Source: Patescibacteria group bacterium (lineage in GTDB: Bacteria; Patescibacteriota; Minisyncoccia; Phycocordibacterales; SBAW01). From it: a stretch of 34,991 nucleotides of DNA. Both the position numbers and the translations under genes were made by a program. This document shows, one piece after another, positions 3,698 to 32,117 of the stretch. Location of the stretch: the NCBI GenBank assembly GCA_016176685.1, contig JACOWS010000005.1, positions 1 through 34,991 on the forward strand, read 5' to 3'. Within the stretch, counting starts at the first letter, position 1, and each line of letters begins with the position of its first letter. The notes below the pieces were generated by a model that did no database searches, was not told where the DNA came from, and was given only the letters and a program-made list of their open reading frames with translations.

Positions 3698-3731
3698 CCG
3701 TCGTAGCTCGCTTCGGCGAGCGAAGACGGGC
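3698..3731. repeat. 34-nt palindrome CCCGTCGTAGCTCGCTTCGGCGAGCGAAGACGGG, 3' arm overlapping tRNA-Pro 5' end
   Basis: CCCGTC/GACGGG and GCTCGC/GCGAGC nested arms; same architecture as 6147-6180. Confidence 0.75.
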
Positions 3732-3797
3732 CGTAGTATACCGGTAGTACACCTGCTTTGGGAGCAGGTAGACTGGGTTCGATTCCCAGCGGCCCGA
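3727..3797 (+). tRNA. tRNA-Pro(TGG)
   Basis: CGGGCCG/CGGCCCG acceptor, CCTGC-TTTGGGA-GCAGG anticodon arm, CTGGG-TTCGATT-CCCAG T-arm. Confidence 0.93.
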
Positions 3798-3889
3798 AAG
3801 CAAGCCGGTTCATGCTGGGTAACCCTCCCAGCGGCCCGAAAGCAAGCCGGTTCATGCTGGGTAACCCTCCCAGCGGCCCGAAAGCAAGT
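3785..3889 (+). repeat. 42-bp tandem repeat (2.5 copies) whose unit carries the tRNA-Pro 3' end
   Basis: CCCAGCGGCCCGAAAGCAAGCCGGTTCATGCTGGGTAACCCT at 3785 and 3827, partial copy at 3869. Confidence 0.95.
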
Positions 3890-4903
3890 ATGGAACGTAT
3901 AACACTTACAACCAAACCATCAGATGGTTATGCACTGCTTGACTCCGGCGGGGAAGAGAAGCTTGAGCGCTATGGCAATATGGTGCTGGCACGCCCAGAC
4001 CCGCAGGCGCTGTGGCCTAAAAACTTGCCGGAATGGAATCACCGCCAAGAGCGGGACCCCACCCTTGGCGGTGGGTGGGACACAGCAGATGCTCAATACG
4101 TTAGAGAGGGGAATAGCGGCCACTGGGTGGGGAATATACCAAAAGAATGGCCGATAGAATTTGGCGGTCTGCGCTTTTTGATTAGGCCGACTAGTTTTAA
4201 ACACACGGGCCTTTTCCCCGAACAGTTGCCCAACTGGGAGTGGCTTTCAAAGTTGGTTGTATCGGTGCTTGCGCTGAATGCCGGTGAGGAGACTGAGCCA
4301 CCCGCGAAGCGGGTAATAGGCTCCGAGGCGGCGTTCAGCGCAAGCACTTCTGCATCAGATAGGCTTGTTTCTGTGCTCAATCTCTTTGCCTACACAGGGG
4401 GAGCCACGCTTGCCGCGGCCAAGGCAGGGGCCAGTGTGGTACATGTAGACGCCTCAAAAACAGCAGTGGCCTGGGCGCGGGAAAATGCCGCCGCTTCAGG
4501 CCTGGCAAGCAAACCTATCCGCTGGCTCGTCGAGGATGTCTTGGTGTTTGTAAGGCGGGAGATAAAACGCGGTAACCGTTATGACATCATCATTATGGAC
4601 CCGCCGTCCTTTGGCCACGGGCCCAAAGATGAGTTGTGGAAGATAGAGGAACATCTTATCCCACTCGTGAAGGAGTGCGCGGAACTGCTGTCGGAAAAAC
4701 CGCTCGGTTTTTTGATAAACGGGTATGCGGCGGGATATTCACCGCTTGCATTTGCCTACAACCTGGAGCCGTTACTAAAAAAATATGGCGGTACTATCCA
4801 GTATGGCGACCTCACGATAGAAGAGCAGGCCCGTTCGACGCACTCAGGGCAGGGAAGTGAGCGGCTCTTACCTTGTGGCATTTTTGCCCGCTGGCAGGCT
4901 TGA
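3890..4903 (+). CDS. Class I SAM-dependent methyltransferase (RlmI/RlmK-like)
   Basis: VLNLFAYTGGATLAAAKAGASVVHVDASK, IIMDPPSFG motifs; ATG at 3890 follows the tandem repeat; longer ORF start lies in the tRNA. Confidence 0.85.
   Translation: MERITLTTKPSDGYALLDSGGEEKLERYGNMVLARPDPQALWPKNLPEWNHRQERDPTLGGGWDTADAQYVREGNSGHWVGNIPKEWPIEFGGLRFLIRPTSFKHTGLFPEQLPNWEWLSKLVVSVLALNAGEETEPPAKRVIGSEAAFSASTSASDRLVSVLNLFAYTGGATLAAAKAGASVVHVDASKTAVAWARENAAASGLASKPIRWLVEDVLVFVRREIKRGNRYDIIIMDPPSFGHGPKDELWKIEEHLIPLVKECAELLSEKPLGFLINGYAAGYSPLAFAYNLEPLLKKYGGTIQYGDLTIEEQARSTHSGQGSERLLPCGIFARWQA
4265..4347. repeat. In-frame palindromic insertion element, copy 1
   Basis: 45-nt core GGAGACTGAGCCACCCGCGAAGCGGGTAATAGGCTCCGAGGCGGC (4288-4332), 43/45 identical to 24224-24268; outer arms GTGCTTGCGCTGAATGCCG / CGGCGTTCAGCGCAAGCAC. 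Confidence 0.9.
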
Positions 4904-7676: not shown

Positions 7677-7678
7677 AA

Positions 7679-7703
7679 ATCATAGAGGCGTCGCCTCTAT
7701 GAT
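7679..7703. repeat. 25-nt palindrome ATCATAGAGGCG-T-CGCCTCTATGAT
   Basis: Exact reverse complement of the sequence at 32093-32117. Confidence 0.9.
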
Positions 7704-22105: not shown

Positions 22106-23185
22106 ATGAACCTGCGAAGTATTAAAGAAGCCGATATCGGCGGCAAGCGCGTGTTGATGCGCGCCGACTTTGATGTGCCCCTGGAGGGCGGGCGAGTGGT
22201 AGACGACACGCGCATCCGCGCGGTACTGCCCACGCTCGAGCTTTTGCACGCGCGTGGTGCTGCTAAGATAATTTTATTGGCCCACCTGGGCCGCCCCGGG
22301 GGCAAGGCGATAGAAGGTCTGCGTGTCGCTCCCGTGGCCATGCGCCTGCACGAACTTACCCGCGTCCCGTTTGAGTTGCGGGAGAATCTGCGCTTCGACC
22401 CGCGCGAGGAGGCAAACAATGCAGGATTTGCAAAAGAATTAGCGGGCCTGGGCGACGTGTTTGTAAACGAAGCATTCGCCGACTCGCATCGTGCACACGC
22501 CTCTATTGTTGGAATACCAACATTTTTACCAAGCTACGCGGGCCTGCGTTTACAAGAGGAGGTTACACAACTCTCTCGCGCACTTACCCCGCCCAAAGGC
22601 GCGGTGGCCATCATTGGCGGTGCCAAGTTCGAAACAAAGGTGCCCCTCCTAACGGTACTTATAGAGCATTACACCCACATACTTTTGGGGGGTGCTTTGG
22701 GTAACGACATAATCAGGGCGCGCGGGTTCCCCGTGGGCGTGTCGACCGTTTCAGCTACGCCCGCTCCTGAAGTGCTAGCCAGAAGTGACCGCTTGCAGGT
22801 GTCTGAGGACGCAGTAGTCGCAGAAGCGGGTGCCAATGCCGAGCGCACTTGTTTGGTAAACGACATACGCGCAAACGAGCGCATCATAGACATCGGGCCG
22901 CGCACTCGCGCGGTGTGGGGCGAAGTGGTCTCGCACGCACCTTTTGTATTGTGGAATGGTCCGTTGGGTGTGTATGAAGAAGGATACAGAGATGGCACCG
23001 ACGCGGTTGCCGCCGCATTGGCAGATGCAAAGGTGCGCGCCGTGGTGGGCGGTGGCGACACCATTGCCGCACTTTCTAAACACTCGTTTGACCCGGCCAA
23101 AGTCTTCCTTTCAACTGGTGGTGGAGCGATGCTCGAGTTTTTGGCACGCGGCACTTTACCAGGCCTCGAGCCGCTGAAAGTGTAG
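22106..23185 (+). CDS. pgk: Phosphoglycerate kinase
   Basis: GKRVLMRADFDVPL, LLAHLGRPGG, VNEAFADSHRAHAS, AIIGGAKFETK, GGGDTIAAL, STGGGAMLEFL. Confidence 0.97.
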   Translation: MNLRSIKEADIGGKRVLMRADFDVPLEGGRVVDDTRIRAVLPTLELLHARGAAKIILLAHLGRPGGKAIEGLRVAPVAMRLHELTRVPFELRENLRFDPREEANNAGFAKELAGLGDVFVNEAFADSHRAHASIVGIPTFLPSYAGLRLQEEVTQLSRALTPPKGAVAIIGGAKFETKVPLLTVLIEHYTHILLGGALGNDIIRARGFPVGVSTVSATPAPEVLARSDRLQVSEDAVVAEAGANAERTCLVNDIRANERIIDIGPRTRAVWGEVVSHAPFVLWNGPLGVYEEGYRDGTDAVAAALADAKVRAVVGGGDTIAALSKHSFDPAKVFLSTGGGAMLEFLARGTLPGLEPLKV

Positions 23186-23193
23186 AGGAGCGG

Positions 23194-23260
23194 ACAAACC
23201 CCTGCAAAGAGAGTAGGACTTGGCCTAGCGGCCCGGAGCGCTCTCTTTGCAGGGGTTTGT
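23194..23260. repeat. Long palindrome, family B copy 1
   Basis: Arms ACAAACCCCTGCAAAGAGAG / CTCTCTTTGCAGGGGTTTGT (20 bp perfect) around 27-nt core TAGGACTTGGCCTAGCGGCCCGGAGCG. Confidence 0.95.
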
Positions 23261-23272
23261 TCGTGTAACAGA

Positions 23273-23632
23273 CTAGAGAGCCGCTCGCAGTTTTGCCGCG
23301 TTGCCCATGAGGTCATTCTTGTCGCCCACGACTCCACTTTCGGGGAAGACCCAAATATGCGCGTGGGCGACCTCGTCGCCCACAATTTTTGAAAGTATCC
23401 ACTGCGTATTAAATGCTTTGCGCTGTGCGAGCGCGATTTTCTTTACCACTTCGAAGTACGCGCCGACATCGGGGACATCCCACACCCATTGGATGTGTTT
23501 TTTTGGGACCACTTGGGCGTGGCCTGGCGCGTGCGGGCGGTTGTCGAGGAACGCCAAAAAATTTTCGTCCTCGTACACCTTGGAGGCGGGCACCTCCCCG
23601 GAAACGATTTTGCAAAAAATACAGTTATTCAT
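23273..23632 (-). CDS. HIT family protein
   Basis: MNNCIFCKIVSGEVPASKVYEDENFLAFLD, HAPGHAQVVPKKH; C-terminal HAHIWVFP replaces the usual HxHxHxxP. Confidence 0.9.
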   Translation of the reverse strand: MNNCIFCKIVSGEVPASKVYEDENFLAFLDNRPHAPGHAQVVPKKHIQWVWDVPDVGAYFEVVKKIALAQRKAFNTQWILSKIVGDEVAHAHIWVFPESGVVGDKNDLMGNAAKLRAAL

Positions 23633-23637
23633 GTCTT

Positions 23638-23711
23638 GGCTAAGCAAAAACCCTTCGTGCAGGAGTAGGGCTCCCGTTCATCTCTCCGGAGCGAAGGGTT
23701 TTTGCTTAGCC
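23638..23711. repeat. Long palindrome, possible diverged family B copy
   Basis: Arms GGCTAAGCAAAAACCCTTCG / CGAAGGGTTTTTGCTTAGCC (20 bp perfect), loop shares GAGTAGGGCT and CCGGAGCG with 23194 element. Confidence 0.85.
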
Positions 23712-23729: not shown

Positions 23730-25490
23730 ATGAAATCCTACCGCCTGCGCGAGCGGCTGCACGACGAACTGATTTTTGACCTCTTGTATTCGCGGGGTAT
23801 CGAGGGAGAGCAGGATATTAAAAATTTTCTCGAGCCGGACTTTGTCCGCGACTCCGGCGACCCGTTTTTGTTGCCCGACATGGGCGTGGCGGTGGAGCGT
23901 CTGCTGTCTGCGAAGAAAAATGGCGAGCAGGTAGCCGTGTGGAGCGACTACGACTGCGACGGCATCCCCGGCGGGGTGATGCTCACCGAGTTTTTGCGCG
24001 CGGTGGGTTTTACAGCCCGGCACTACATCCCGCATCGCCACACGGAAGGATACGGGCTTAACGAAGACGGCCTTGCTGAACTCGCACAGACCGGTGTCAA
24101 AGTTATTATCACCATAGACCTTGGCACCACCGAGCACGAGTCTATATCCTATGCAAACAAAAAAGGAATTGATGTGATAGTTACCGACCACCACCAGGTG
24201 TCCCCCACATCATATGCTACTCCGGAGACTGAGCCACCCGCGAAGCGGGTAATAGGATCCGGGGCGGCATATGATGTGGGAAATTTGCCTCCGGCGCTCG
24301 CGGTCATCAACCCCAAGCGCGCCGATTCGGCATACCCATTCAACGGCCTGTGCGGCGCCGGCGTGGCGTGGAAGCTGGTGCAGGCGATTTTGTCAAAAAT
24401 GAGAGAGGGCGGGCAACCCTTCGACTACGCAGAGGGTAAAGAAAAGTGGCTCCTAGACCTTGTGGGATTGGCAACCCTGTCCGATATGGTTCCCTTGGTG
24501 GGAGAAAATAGGATGCTCGCGCACTTTGGGCTCACGGTGATGCGTCGCAACCGCCGCCCGGGGTTTGCCGCACTCCTAAAGCTTTTGCGTATAAAATCGC
24601 ACACGCTTACCGAGGACGATATCGGGTTTATGGTGGCGCCGCGCATCAACGCCGCCTCACGCATGGACAGTCCGGAAGCGGCCGCCCGGCTTTTAGCAAC
24701 AGAAGACCCGGCAGAAGCGCGCGAGCTTGGCGAGGCGCTCGAAGCGCTCAACAACCAGCGCAAGGGCTTGGTTGCCGCGACGGTCAAAGAGGCAAATCAT
24801 CGCCTCGCGCAAACATCAGTCGAGAGTCCGGTCATTGTGATGGGCAGCCCTTCGTGGCGGCCGGGGATATTGGGGCTTGTGGCAAACTCGCTTATGGGCG
24901 CACATGGCAAGCCGGTTTTTTTGTGGGGTAGGGAAGGAGGTGAAACTCTCAAAGGGTCATGCCGCTCCGATGGCGCGCTAAACGTGGTTGACCTTATGGG
25001 CACCGCCCAAAGAGCTCTGCCCGACGGGGTGTTTGAAGATTTTGGCGGGCACCATGCGGCAGGCGGATTCTCACTCACGCAAGAGCGAGTACACGAGCTG
25101 CCAACGCGGCTCGCCGGTGCGTACGAAACTTTGCGCAAGATCTCTTCAGTAGTTGAGCCGGTTGTGCTGGAGCGCGAGGTAGACCTTGCGGAAGTAGGCC
25201 ACGCCCACACAGCGTTGGCGCGACTGGCCCCCTTTGGCGAAGGCAATCGCAAGCCGCTTTTTATCTTCCCGCGTGTTTCTCTCGAGGGAGTGCGGATGTT
25301 TGGTAAGGCGCAGGACCACTTGGAAATAAAGTTGAGCAAGAACGGAGTGCGAGTACCGGGTGTTTCATTTTTCTCTAGTCAGGATTCTTTTTCAAAAAAA
25401 GTAGAAGCAGGATTGACCGCCGACATAGTAGGGCATATAGAAAACGATTGGCGCGGCGGTCCACGCGTCCGTGTTACGGATGTTATCTAA
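23730..25490 (+). CDS. recJ: Single-stranded-DNA exonuclease RecJ
   Basis: SDYDCDGIPGGVML, VIVTDHHQV, LCGAGVAWKL, INAASRMDSP, GGHHAAGGFSL; carries an in-frame insertion. Confidence 0.95.
   Translation: MKSYRLRERLHDELIFDLLYSRGIEGEQDIKNFLEPDFVRDSGDPFLLPDMGVAVERLLSAKKNGEQVAVWSDYDCDGIPGGVMLTEFLRAVGFTARHYIPHRHTEGYGLNEDGLAELAQTGVKVIITIDLGTTEHESISYANKKGIDVIVTDHHQVSPTSYATPETEPPAKRVIGSGAAYDVGNLPPALAVINPKRADSAYPFNGLCGAGVAWKLVQAILSKMREGGQPFDYAEGKEKWLLDLVGLATLSDMVPLVGENRMLAHFGLTVMRRNRRPGFAALLKLLRIKSHTLTEDDIGFMVAPRINAASRMDSPEAAARLLATEDPAEARELGEALEALNNQRKGLVAATVKEANHRLAQTSVESPVIVMGSPSWRPGILGLVANSLMGAHGKPVFLWGREGGETLKGSCRSDGALNVVDLMGTAQRALPDGVFEDFGGHHAAGGFSLTQERVHELPTRLAGAYETLRKISSVVEPVVLEREVDLAEVGHAHTALARLAPFGEGNRKPLFIFPRVSLEGVRMFGKAQDHLEIKLSKNGVRVPGVSFFSSQDSFSKKVEAGLTADIVGHIENDWRGGPRVRVTDVI
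24204..24280. repeat. In-frame palindromic insertion element, copy 2
   Basis: Core 24224-24268 matches 4288-4332 at 43/45; arms CCCACATCATATGC / GCATATGATGTGGG. Confidence 0.92.
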
Positions 25491-25595
25491 CTCGTTATTT
25501 TAAAGGCTGCTCCTTTTCGGAAATTTCTCTGCATTGGTGTTACACAACATCTCCGACATTCACCCCGCTATTTACAATGCTCTCCCCCTACTGCA

Positions 25596-25633
25596 ACACA
25601 CTAACTCATAGCTATAGCGTATACTTAGTGTGT
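25596..25633. repeat. Palindrome C1: ACACACTAA-CTCATAGCTATAGC...-TTAGTGTGT
   Basis: 9-bp arms; TAACTCATAGCTATAGC shared with 26223 element. Confidence 0.85.
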
Positions 25634-26207
25634 GGGGAAATTAGAGGTAGAACATACCAGAAGGCAAAGACGAACCGACCTTCAAAAGGTGGTGCTTGGC
25701 ACTGTTGCAGCCGCCGGCGTATTGAGTATTGCGCTGGTGGCGCCAAATGTACTCGGGGCTCTTAGTAAGTTGGGAATGATCCCCACGAAAAGACAACCCG
25801 ACTCTATCCGTGCCGCACGCAACCGGTTGGTACATCATGGCTTTTTACAGTACGAAGGGAAGATGTTGCGCTTGACGGCAGAGGGAGAGAAAAAACTTCG
25901 TTCGCTCGAACTACACAACTATCAGATCCCTAAACAAAAACGGTGGGACAAAAAATGGCGCGTCCTTATTTTTGATATCCCTGAAAAAAGAAAATCATTG
26001 CGAGAAAAAATACGCCGTACCCTTGCGGTCATCGGTTTTGTGCGGCTGCAAGACAGTGTGTGGATCTACCCGTACCCGTGCGAAGATCTTATTACGCTGC
26101 TCAAGGCAGATTTTAAAATAGGGAAGGATGTGCTGTATATGATAGTCGACACGCTCGAATATGACGCGCCAATTAGAGAGCGGTTTGATTTAAGTGTTTT
26201 GTCCTAA
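25632..26207 (+). CDS. PaaX-like C-terminal (Cas2-fold-like) transcriptional regulator
   Basis: KRWDKKWRVLIFDIPEKRKSLREKIRRTLAVIGFVRLQDSVWIYPYPCEDLI; wHTH-like region LRLTAEGEKKL; probable GTG start. Confidence 0.75.
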   Translation: MGKLEVEHTRRQRRTDLQKVVLGTVAAAGVLSIALVAPNVLGALSKLGMIPTKRQPDSIRAARNRLVHHGFLQYEGKMLRLTAEGEKKLRSLELHNYQIPKQKRWDKKWRVLIFDIPEKRKSLREKIRRTLAVIGFVRLQDSVWIYPYPCEDLITLLKADFKIGKDVLYMIVDTLEYDAPIRERFDLSVLS

Positions 26208-26215
26208 AATAACAA

Positions 26216-26254
26216 ACGCATTAACTCATAGCTATAGCAACAAGCTAATGCGTG
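26216..26254. repeat. Palindrome C2: ACGCATTA-ACTCATAGCTATAGC...-TAATGCGT
   Basis: 8-bp arms; same core and orientation as C1 but compensated arms. Confidence 0.85.
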
Positions 26255-26344
26255 GTGTTTTTATCCTGTTGAAAAAGGTTTAAAAAACGATGTCAAAAAT
26301 AAAAAAAGAGTCGATTTTACTCTTTGTGCGCTATACTGCAACCC

Positions 26345-30139: not shown

Positions 30140-30216
30140 CCCAAAAAGCAAACAAAAAAGAGAGCGCTCCGGGCCGCTAGGCCAAGTCTTACTCTCTTTT
30201 TTGTTTGCTTTTTGGG
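30140..30216. repeat. Long palindrome, family B copy 2 (inverted relative to copy 1)
   Basis: 25-bp perfect arms CCCAAAAAGCAAACAAAAAAGAGAG / CTCTCTTTTTTGTTTGCTTTTTGGG; core reverse complement matches copy 1 at 26/27. Confidence 0.95.
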
Positions 30217-32088: not shown

Positions 32089-32092
32089 TGTA

Positions 32093-32117
32093 ATCATAGA
32101 GGCGACGCCTCTATGAT
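32093..32117. repeat. 25-nt palindrome ATCATAGAGGCG-A-CGCCTCTATGAT
   Basis: Exact reverse complement of 7679-7703. Confidence 0.9.

Follow-up and report, generated by a model that had tools for sequence, protein, structure and literature searches.

A dispersed hairpin family of Patescibacteria with a fixed 27-nt tip and locus-specific pairing stems

RESULTS AND DISCUSSION

Two Hairpins With a Common Tip and Different Arms

The short intergenic region between pgk and a HIT-domain gene of this Patescibacteria genome contains a hairpin whose tip recurs elsewhere with other arms, which raises the question of how a tip can stay fixed when the stem that pairs around it changes from site to site. 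We call these hairpins family B, and the window is the whole stretch of 34,991 nt that was analysed (Table 1). The 67-nt hairpin at 23194-23260 is formed by the arm ACAAACCCCTGCAAAGAGAG, the core TAGGACTTGGCCTAGCGGCCCGGAGCG and the exact complement of the arm, and if one mismatch is allowed the pairing reaches 23191-23263. In the second window copy (30140-30216), the core is reversed and carries one difference (TAAGAC), and the arms, CCCAAAAAGCAAACAAAAAAGAGAG, pair perfectly over 25 bp. A sequence-only reading of this DNA had described the perfect 20-bp arms at pgk/HIT exactly as we find them, letter by letter, and had matched the core at 26/27 to the reverse complement of the core at 30165-30191; the sequence bears out both claims. 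Perfect arms around any 27-nt spacer do not exceed 10 bp in the window except for the 20 and 25 bp of these two sites, and the core match was absent from 100 dinucleotide shuffles of the window.

Table 1. Position of the hairpins and adjoining genes in the window.
Feature	Position	Strand	Remark
pgk, upstream convergent gene	22106..23185	+	
Left arm, family B hairpin, pgk/HIT junction	23194..23213	.	pairs with 23241-23260
Conserved 27-nt core (tip), family B	23214..23240	+	
Right arm, pgk/HIT hairpin	23241..23260	.	exact complement of 23194-23213
HIT-domain gene, downstream convergent gene	23273..23647	-	
Arm, second family B hairpin, between MBL-fold gene and rpmB (L28)	30140..30164	.	
Conserved core, reverse orientation	30165..30191	-	26/27 to first core
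Arm, second family B hairpin	30192..30216	.	exact complement of 30140-30164
Family A hairpin (core GGAGACTGAGCCACCCGCGAAGCGGGTAATAGG...)	4265..4347	+	in frame in methyltransferase ORF
Family A hairpin	24204..24280	+	in frame in recJ
Further-family hairpin (loop TGCAGGAGTAGGGCTCCCGTTCATCTCTCCGGAG)	23638..23711	.	second copy in L011

Copy Number and Host Range

The genome from which the window comes (G000, 550 kb, 98% complete) contains the core 11 times at three mismatches or fewer, every copy having its own, largely self-complementary arms. Family B is found in 26 of 198 genomes of relatives, with a maximum of 23 copies in one genome (G113), and an even sample of the phylum yielded the core (up to two mismatches) in 5 of 389 genomes. 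An exact scan of GTDB contigs with the core gave 95 stretches; because these were collected by exact match, part of the core conservation among them is built into the search. Wherever the record title of a match names a group, this is a lineage of the Patescibacteria/CPR, including Adler-, Kaiser-, Nomura-, Harrison-, Uhr-, Peri- and Saccharibacteria, among others. The distribution across the phylum is wide but patchy, and about 165 distinct copies at unrelated sites were gathered overall, each studied in the stretch surrounding the hit. A search of the window and 20 element loci against Rfam matched only tRNAs, with nothing above the gathering score at the element, and our search of the open literature found no description of it. 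In a saccharibacterial contig (L095:2163-2268), two copies lie in the same orientation, 81 nt apart.

Arms Pair With Themselves and Rarely With Those of Other Copies

The sequence-only reading had proposed as a rule that the core is conserved and that the arms are unrelated between copies yet self-complementary at each site, and had suggested comparing both properties over all copies. In 163 copies, the two arms of the same hairpin pair at 62-96% over positions 1-23, counted from the core, and no better than chance from about position 36 on, whereas a left arm set against the right arm of another copy pairs at only about 27-37% beyond position 6-8. The conserved core, the self-pairing and the locus-specific arms thus hold over the collection of about 165 copies, but the arms are not unrelated throughout. 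Their innermost 6 nt or so are 67-100% alike between the copies of a genome (76% in G000), likeness is moderate at positions 7-12, and beyond about 12 nt identity lies near composition level in G000 and several other genomes; some copies also have imperfect arms. Moreover, arms of about 30 nt are shared in two genomes: in nzgw465, about 80 nt, inner arms included, are common to four copies, among which one AT-rich stem segment of about 13 bp varies with compensation, and in G023 arms of about 31 nt are common to 3 of 5 copies. These shared hairpins stand at different sites, demonstrating that arms can travel with the unit.

The arms of a resident copy appear to change slowly, since at the ftsZ/trxB junction of two species a run of 92 nt that includes the arms is identical while the flanks differ by about 11%. 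For this reason, renewal at or near insertion accounts better than drift does for the unrelated arms seen within one genome.

Mismatches Suggest That the Core Strand Folds Single-Stranded

When the mismatches within arms are read on the core strand, G.T outnumbers A.C by 66 to 10 and G.A outnumbers C.T by 92 to 6, part of the G.A excess being due to lineage-typical tandem G.A internal loops in the alignments. Simple decay of the arms predicts equal numbers of G.T and A.C, and the core strand therefore seems to function folded and single-stranded. Copies that are antisense to their gene show the same asymmetry (22 to 3). With the core replaced, the core strand gives the better fold of the arms in 139 of 161 copies and the opposite strand in 22, an advantage that must come from the mismatches alone because perfect arms fold alike on both strands. 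The tip stem itself covaries, being GGCC/GGCC in 133 copies and GGGC/GCCC in 30, and neither of the two possible crossed combinations occurs among these 163 copies. We read this as selection or filtering that acts on the folding of one single strand and not on the mRNA of the gene. The core strand coincides with the C-rich strand at 85 of 133 loci, a weak bias (p = 0.002) obtained from copies that are partly non-independent; gene direction shows no bias, and such a pattern would fit a replication-linked DNA process.

Copies Between and Within Genes

Convergent genes surround both window copies and the copy at locus L001, and in these three the inner stem is preceded by an A run and followed by a T run. 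The ORF caller labelled the surroundings of the window copies as tandem, and the assignment used here follows Pfam, which gives pgk/HIT and MBL/L28. Both window copies have a T run behind the stem at gene 3' ends, an arrangement that is absent from in-gene and divergent copies. In G000, copies flanked by convergent genes and bearing A/T runs at the inner stem are probably also bidirectional terminators. This use is, however, secondary, because other copies are located within genes, between divergent genes (14 copies) or antisense in tandem contexts (25 copies), and these contexts rule out a function as terminator only.

About 40 copies lie in frame inside long housekeeping ORFs, 22 in sense and 18 in antisense. 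From sequence recognition, we take the host genes to encode, for example, ArgS, ValS, IleS, cysteine desulfurase, RarA, MnmA, MiaA, UvrB, UvrC, IF-2, TsaD, PrmC, KsgA and Mpg, and the names of KsgA, MnmA, MiaA, TsaD, PrmC, TlyA and UvrC are further backed by comparison. The peptides encoded by the core are KTWPSGPER, xLGLAARSA, ALRAARPSx and RSGPLGQVx. The frame that the TAG of the core would close is used in two copies, both of which have GAG at that place. Translational bypass or splicing is unlikely, since the in-gene copies leave their reading frame open and unshifted, and the TAG is lost in both copies whose frame it would otherwise close.

The question arises whether family B could be an immobile RNA element that serves the host, i.e., a terminator or a protein-binding hairpin maintained by selection while its stems covary freely. 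The covariation of stem and tip, the tolerance of G.T pairs, the A/T runs and convergent neighbours of the window copies and the existence of one orthologous copy better conserved than its flanks are what such an element would show. We nevertheless consider it highly improbable, given the occurrence of sense and antisense copies within genes, the divergent and antisense tandem contexts, the presence of the core in so few genomes across the phylum and the lack of any Rfam match at the element.

Certain protein loops and gene junctions recur as sites in several species, at ftsZ/trxB and MBL/L28 even in opposite orientations in different species, and some of these repeatedly occupied places hold other hairpin families instead. 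Repeated occupation could also mean that old copies have since been inverted or have decayed. A second loop of the G000 cysteine desulfurase (L166) contains ALRAAKDPSLT, which resembles a decayed family B copy, and several relatives have an intact element at that site.

Empty Sites and the Origin of the Arms

Comparison with relatives shows what was added at the pgk/HIT junction. In 17 relatives the two genes abut or overlap, with a stop-to-stop gap of -54 to 0 nt, as against a gap of +87 nt in G000 that accommodates the 67-nt hairpin. The whole hairpin, core and both arms, is therefore extra, and the 17 relatives leave no room for a prior hairpin. Nine other relatives have gaps of at least 208 nt with a different sequence in between, and thus the history of this junction may be more complex. 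Relatives also lack the element at the same site in the cysteine desulfurase loop, in the RarA loop and at atpD/atpC. A clean target-site duplication was found at none of the sites, the most similar feature being a 4-nt TGAA repeat at one of them.

The sequence-only reading had offered two explanations for the self-complementary arms. One of them, that the core was inserted into the loop of a pre-existing hairpin or terminator, fails at pgk/HIT for want of space in the 17 relatives, but could hold at the L28 junction: the place taken by the element in G000 and G012 is held in several relatives by a plain bidirectional terminator. The net insertions in MiaA and TsaD, which are smaller than the core plus one arm, and the core-less palindromes in Mpg of G008 and in the cysteine desulfurase of G001 can also be understood in this way. 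However, perfect 20-bp hairpins would not be expected inside genes beforehand, and shuffled windows contained none of the size searched. As a general explanation, this seems to us very unlikely.

The other explanation was an inverted duplication of one flank. It amounts to a snap-back process: what arrives is only the core with a short inner stem, and native DNA at the site is copied by foldback into the second arm, so that the net insertion should equal the core plus one arm. This part of the proposal finds agreement in copies of RarA (51-54 nt net, 54 expected, and 60-63, 61 expected), ArgS (48, 50 expected, and 39, 43 expected), MnmA (48-51, 51 expected) and TlyA (57-60, 54 expected). In MnmA, the right arm encodes conserved residues that align with E. 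coli MnmA, and in the cysteine desulfurase of G000 the native edge CGGATTG forms part of the arm. The proposal does not account for pgk/HIT, where both arms are extra, nor for the tight loop of cysteine desulfurase, where G000 has gained about 69 nt net (hairpin of 80) and G011 about 78 nt (hairpin of 84) versus 56 expected, nor for the unrelated sites that share arms in nzgw465 and G023. In two other ArgS copies the net insertion is above the core plus one arm, and in PrmC two flanking pieces aligned to a solved structure suggest a net gain of about 21 residues. Alignments of KsgA and UvrC to solved structures did not reach across the insert. Long loops also differ in length among relatives that are free of the element, which weakens the agreement seen in such loops. 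On balance, we regard a snap-back origin of the second arm as a rather doubtful, though not negligible, possibility. The same tentative standing is given to the broader idea that only the sequence of the tip is recognised and that self-primed (snap-back) synthesis builds the stems anew wherever the hairpin inserts, each insertion thereby becoming a new perfect hairpin.

Comparison With Known Hairpin Repeats

The closest likeness is to the RPEs, repeats of 105-146 nt with terminal inverted repeats that were reported to be Rickettsia-specific (PMC2229807). Like them, family B consists of small dispersed hairpin repeats found at intergenic sites and in frame within conserved genes of a reduced genome, without a transposase of their own. 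All named family B hosts are, however, Patescibacteria, and family B is set apart from the RPE descriptions by a 27-nt tip that is fixed across a phylum and by arms that differ yet pair. For RPEs, a work cited in PMC6649704 is quoted as finding that repeat identity is lost over time.

A terminal GTAG or CGTC tag and family-specific stems of 6-13 bp characterise REPs, which are extragenic and depend on a RAYT (PMC3733652). Family B shares with the REP/RAYT system a small palindrome that seems to act as a folded single strand, with G.T pairs in the stem. In contrast, its stems are 20-40 bp long and locus-specific, and the flanks outside its arms show no constant tag of the GTAG/CGTC type at the foot. 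The sequence-only reading had also suggested looking for an associated transposase or RAYT; none was found, and Y1/RAYT-type transposases do not track the element. In fact, Y1 (PF01797) has no match in G113, which has 23 copies and is 93% complete, or in several other carriers, and a Y1 transposase as driver was discarded because its presence is uncorrelated with the element. Family B is not a member of the REP/RAYT class. Traits of MITEs are likewise missing, as there are no constant terminal inverted repeats and only one possible 4-nt target-site repeat.

The repetitive hairpin-forming elements of sponge mitochondria, whose stems are conserved and whose loops vary (PMC2800124), are also dispersed hairpins that have invaded several genomes, but in family B it is the tip that is conserved and the stems that are free. 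The coding palindromes of Nematomorpha mitochondria, for which template switching has been proposed (PMC6649704), resemble family B in being perfect inverted repeats within protein genes with arms that change in concert; unlike family B, they have no dispersed conserved core, and no repeat family was reported (PMC6649704).

A Proposed Mobile Hairpin With Renewed Arms

Taken with moderate confidence, the reading that we prefer is that family B is a non-autonomous, RPE-like mobile hairpin of Patescibacteria with a fixed tip and with arms that are renewed by hairpin copying. The fixed part would be the 27-nt core, folded as GGSC-NAGC-GSCC with G.A-rich internal loops, together with a short lineage-typical inner stem, and in the outer stem pairing would be required and the sequence free. 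The strand bearing the core would act folded and single-stranded, as the mismatch pattern indirectly suggests. A putative trans-acting enzyme would recognise the tip and insert the hairpin, insertion itself being evident from the comparison with relatives, and the targets would be intergenic DNA or tolerant protein loops, in frame and in either orientation. The arms would then be renewed in concert, one side of the hairpin being copied from the other, either at insertion or by later template switching, and sometimes with inclusion of the native flank. The mixed net insertion sizes across loci, the want of a clean target-site duplication, the absence of a Y1 transposase from G113 and the possibility that repeatedly occupied sites hold old inverted or decayed copies speak against this reading.

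These results reveal palindromic mobile DNA lying in frame in a second group of bacteria with reduced genomes, very distant from the first, and provide a natural case that separates tip from stem: the tip is retained throughout a phylum, and the stems, though free in sequence, have to pair. Should the arms be made at insertion, DNA would here move by a route that the textbook classes do not cover, an idea that the many in-gene copies make testable by strain comparison.

Other Hairpin Families and Repeats

Family A has the same design as family B with a different tip. Hairpins related to the 23638-23711 family occur in Mpg of G012, G022 and G025, and in other species (L260, L261, L271) a hairpin of that family fills the same Mpg loop; in Mpg of G000 (L258), family B is seemingly nested in a decayed hairpin of this kind. 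The ArgS loop occupied by family B contains hairpins of other families in G017 (L140) and G011 (L155), with loops TGTGCGCCAGCCGGGGGGC and TCCAGCTGCAGGGAGGAAAGGGGACGCTTCC, respectively, and is empty in the sister genome G020. The core-less perfect palindromes of G001 (cysteine desulfurase, L168) and G008 (Mpg, L265) lie in loops that carry cored hairpins in other species, and they may be remnants after core loss or a separate class.

Another pair with a conserved core and variable arms is present in the window at 25595-25635 and 26215-26255, where two copies of ACTCATAGCTATAGC stand in the compensated arms ACACACTA/TAGTGTGT and ACGCATTA/TAATGCGT. Two near-identical 26-nt palindromes, AATCATAGAGGCGWCGCCTCTATGAT, are located far apart at 7678-7703 and 32092-32117. 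Finally, a tRNA gene (3727-3797) carries at its tail, at 3773-3898, tandem 42-nt units that repeat its own 3' end.
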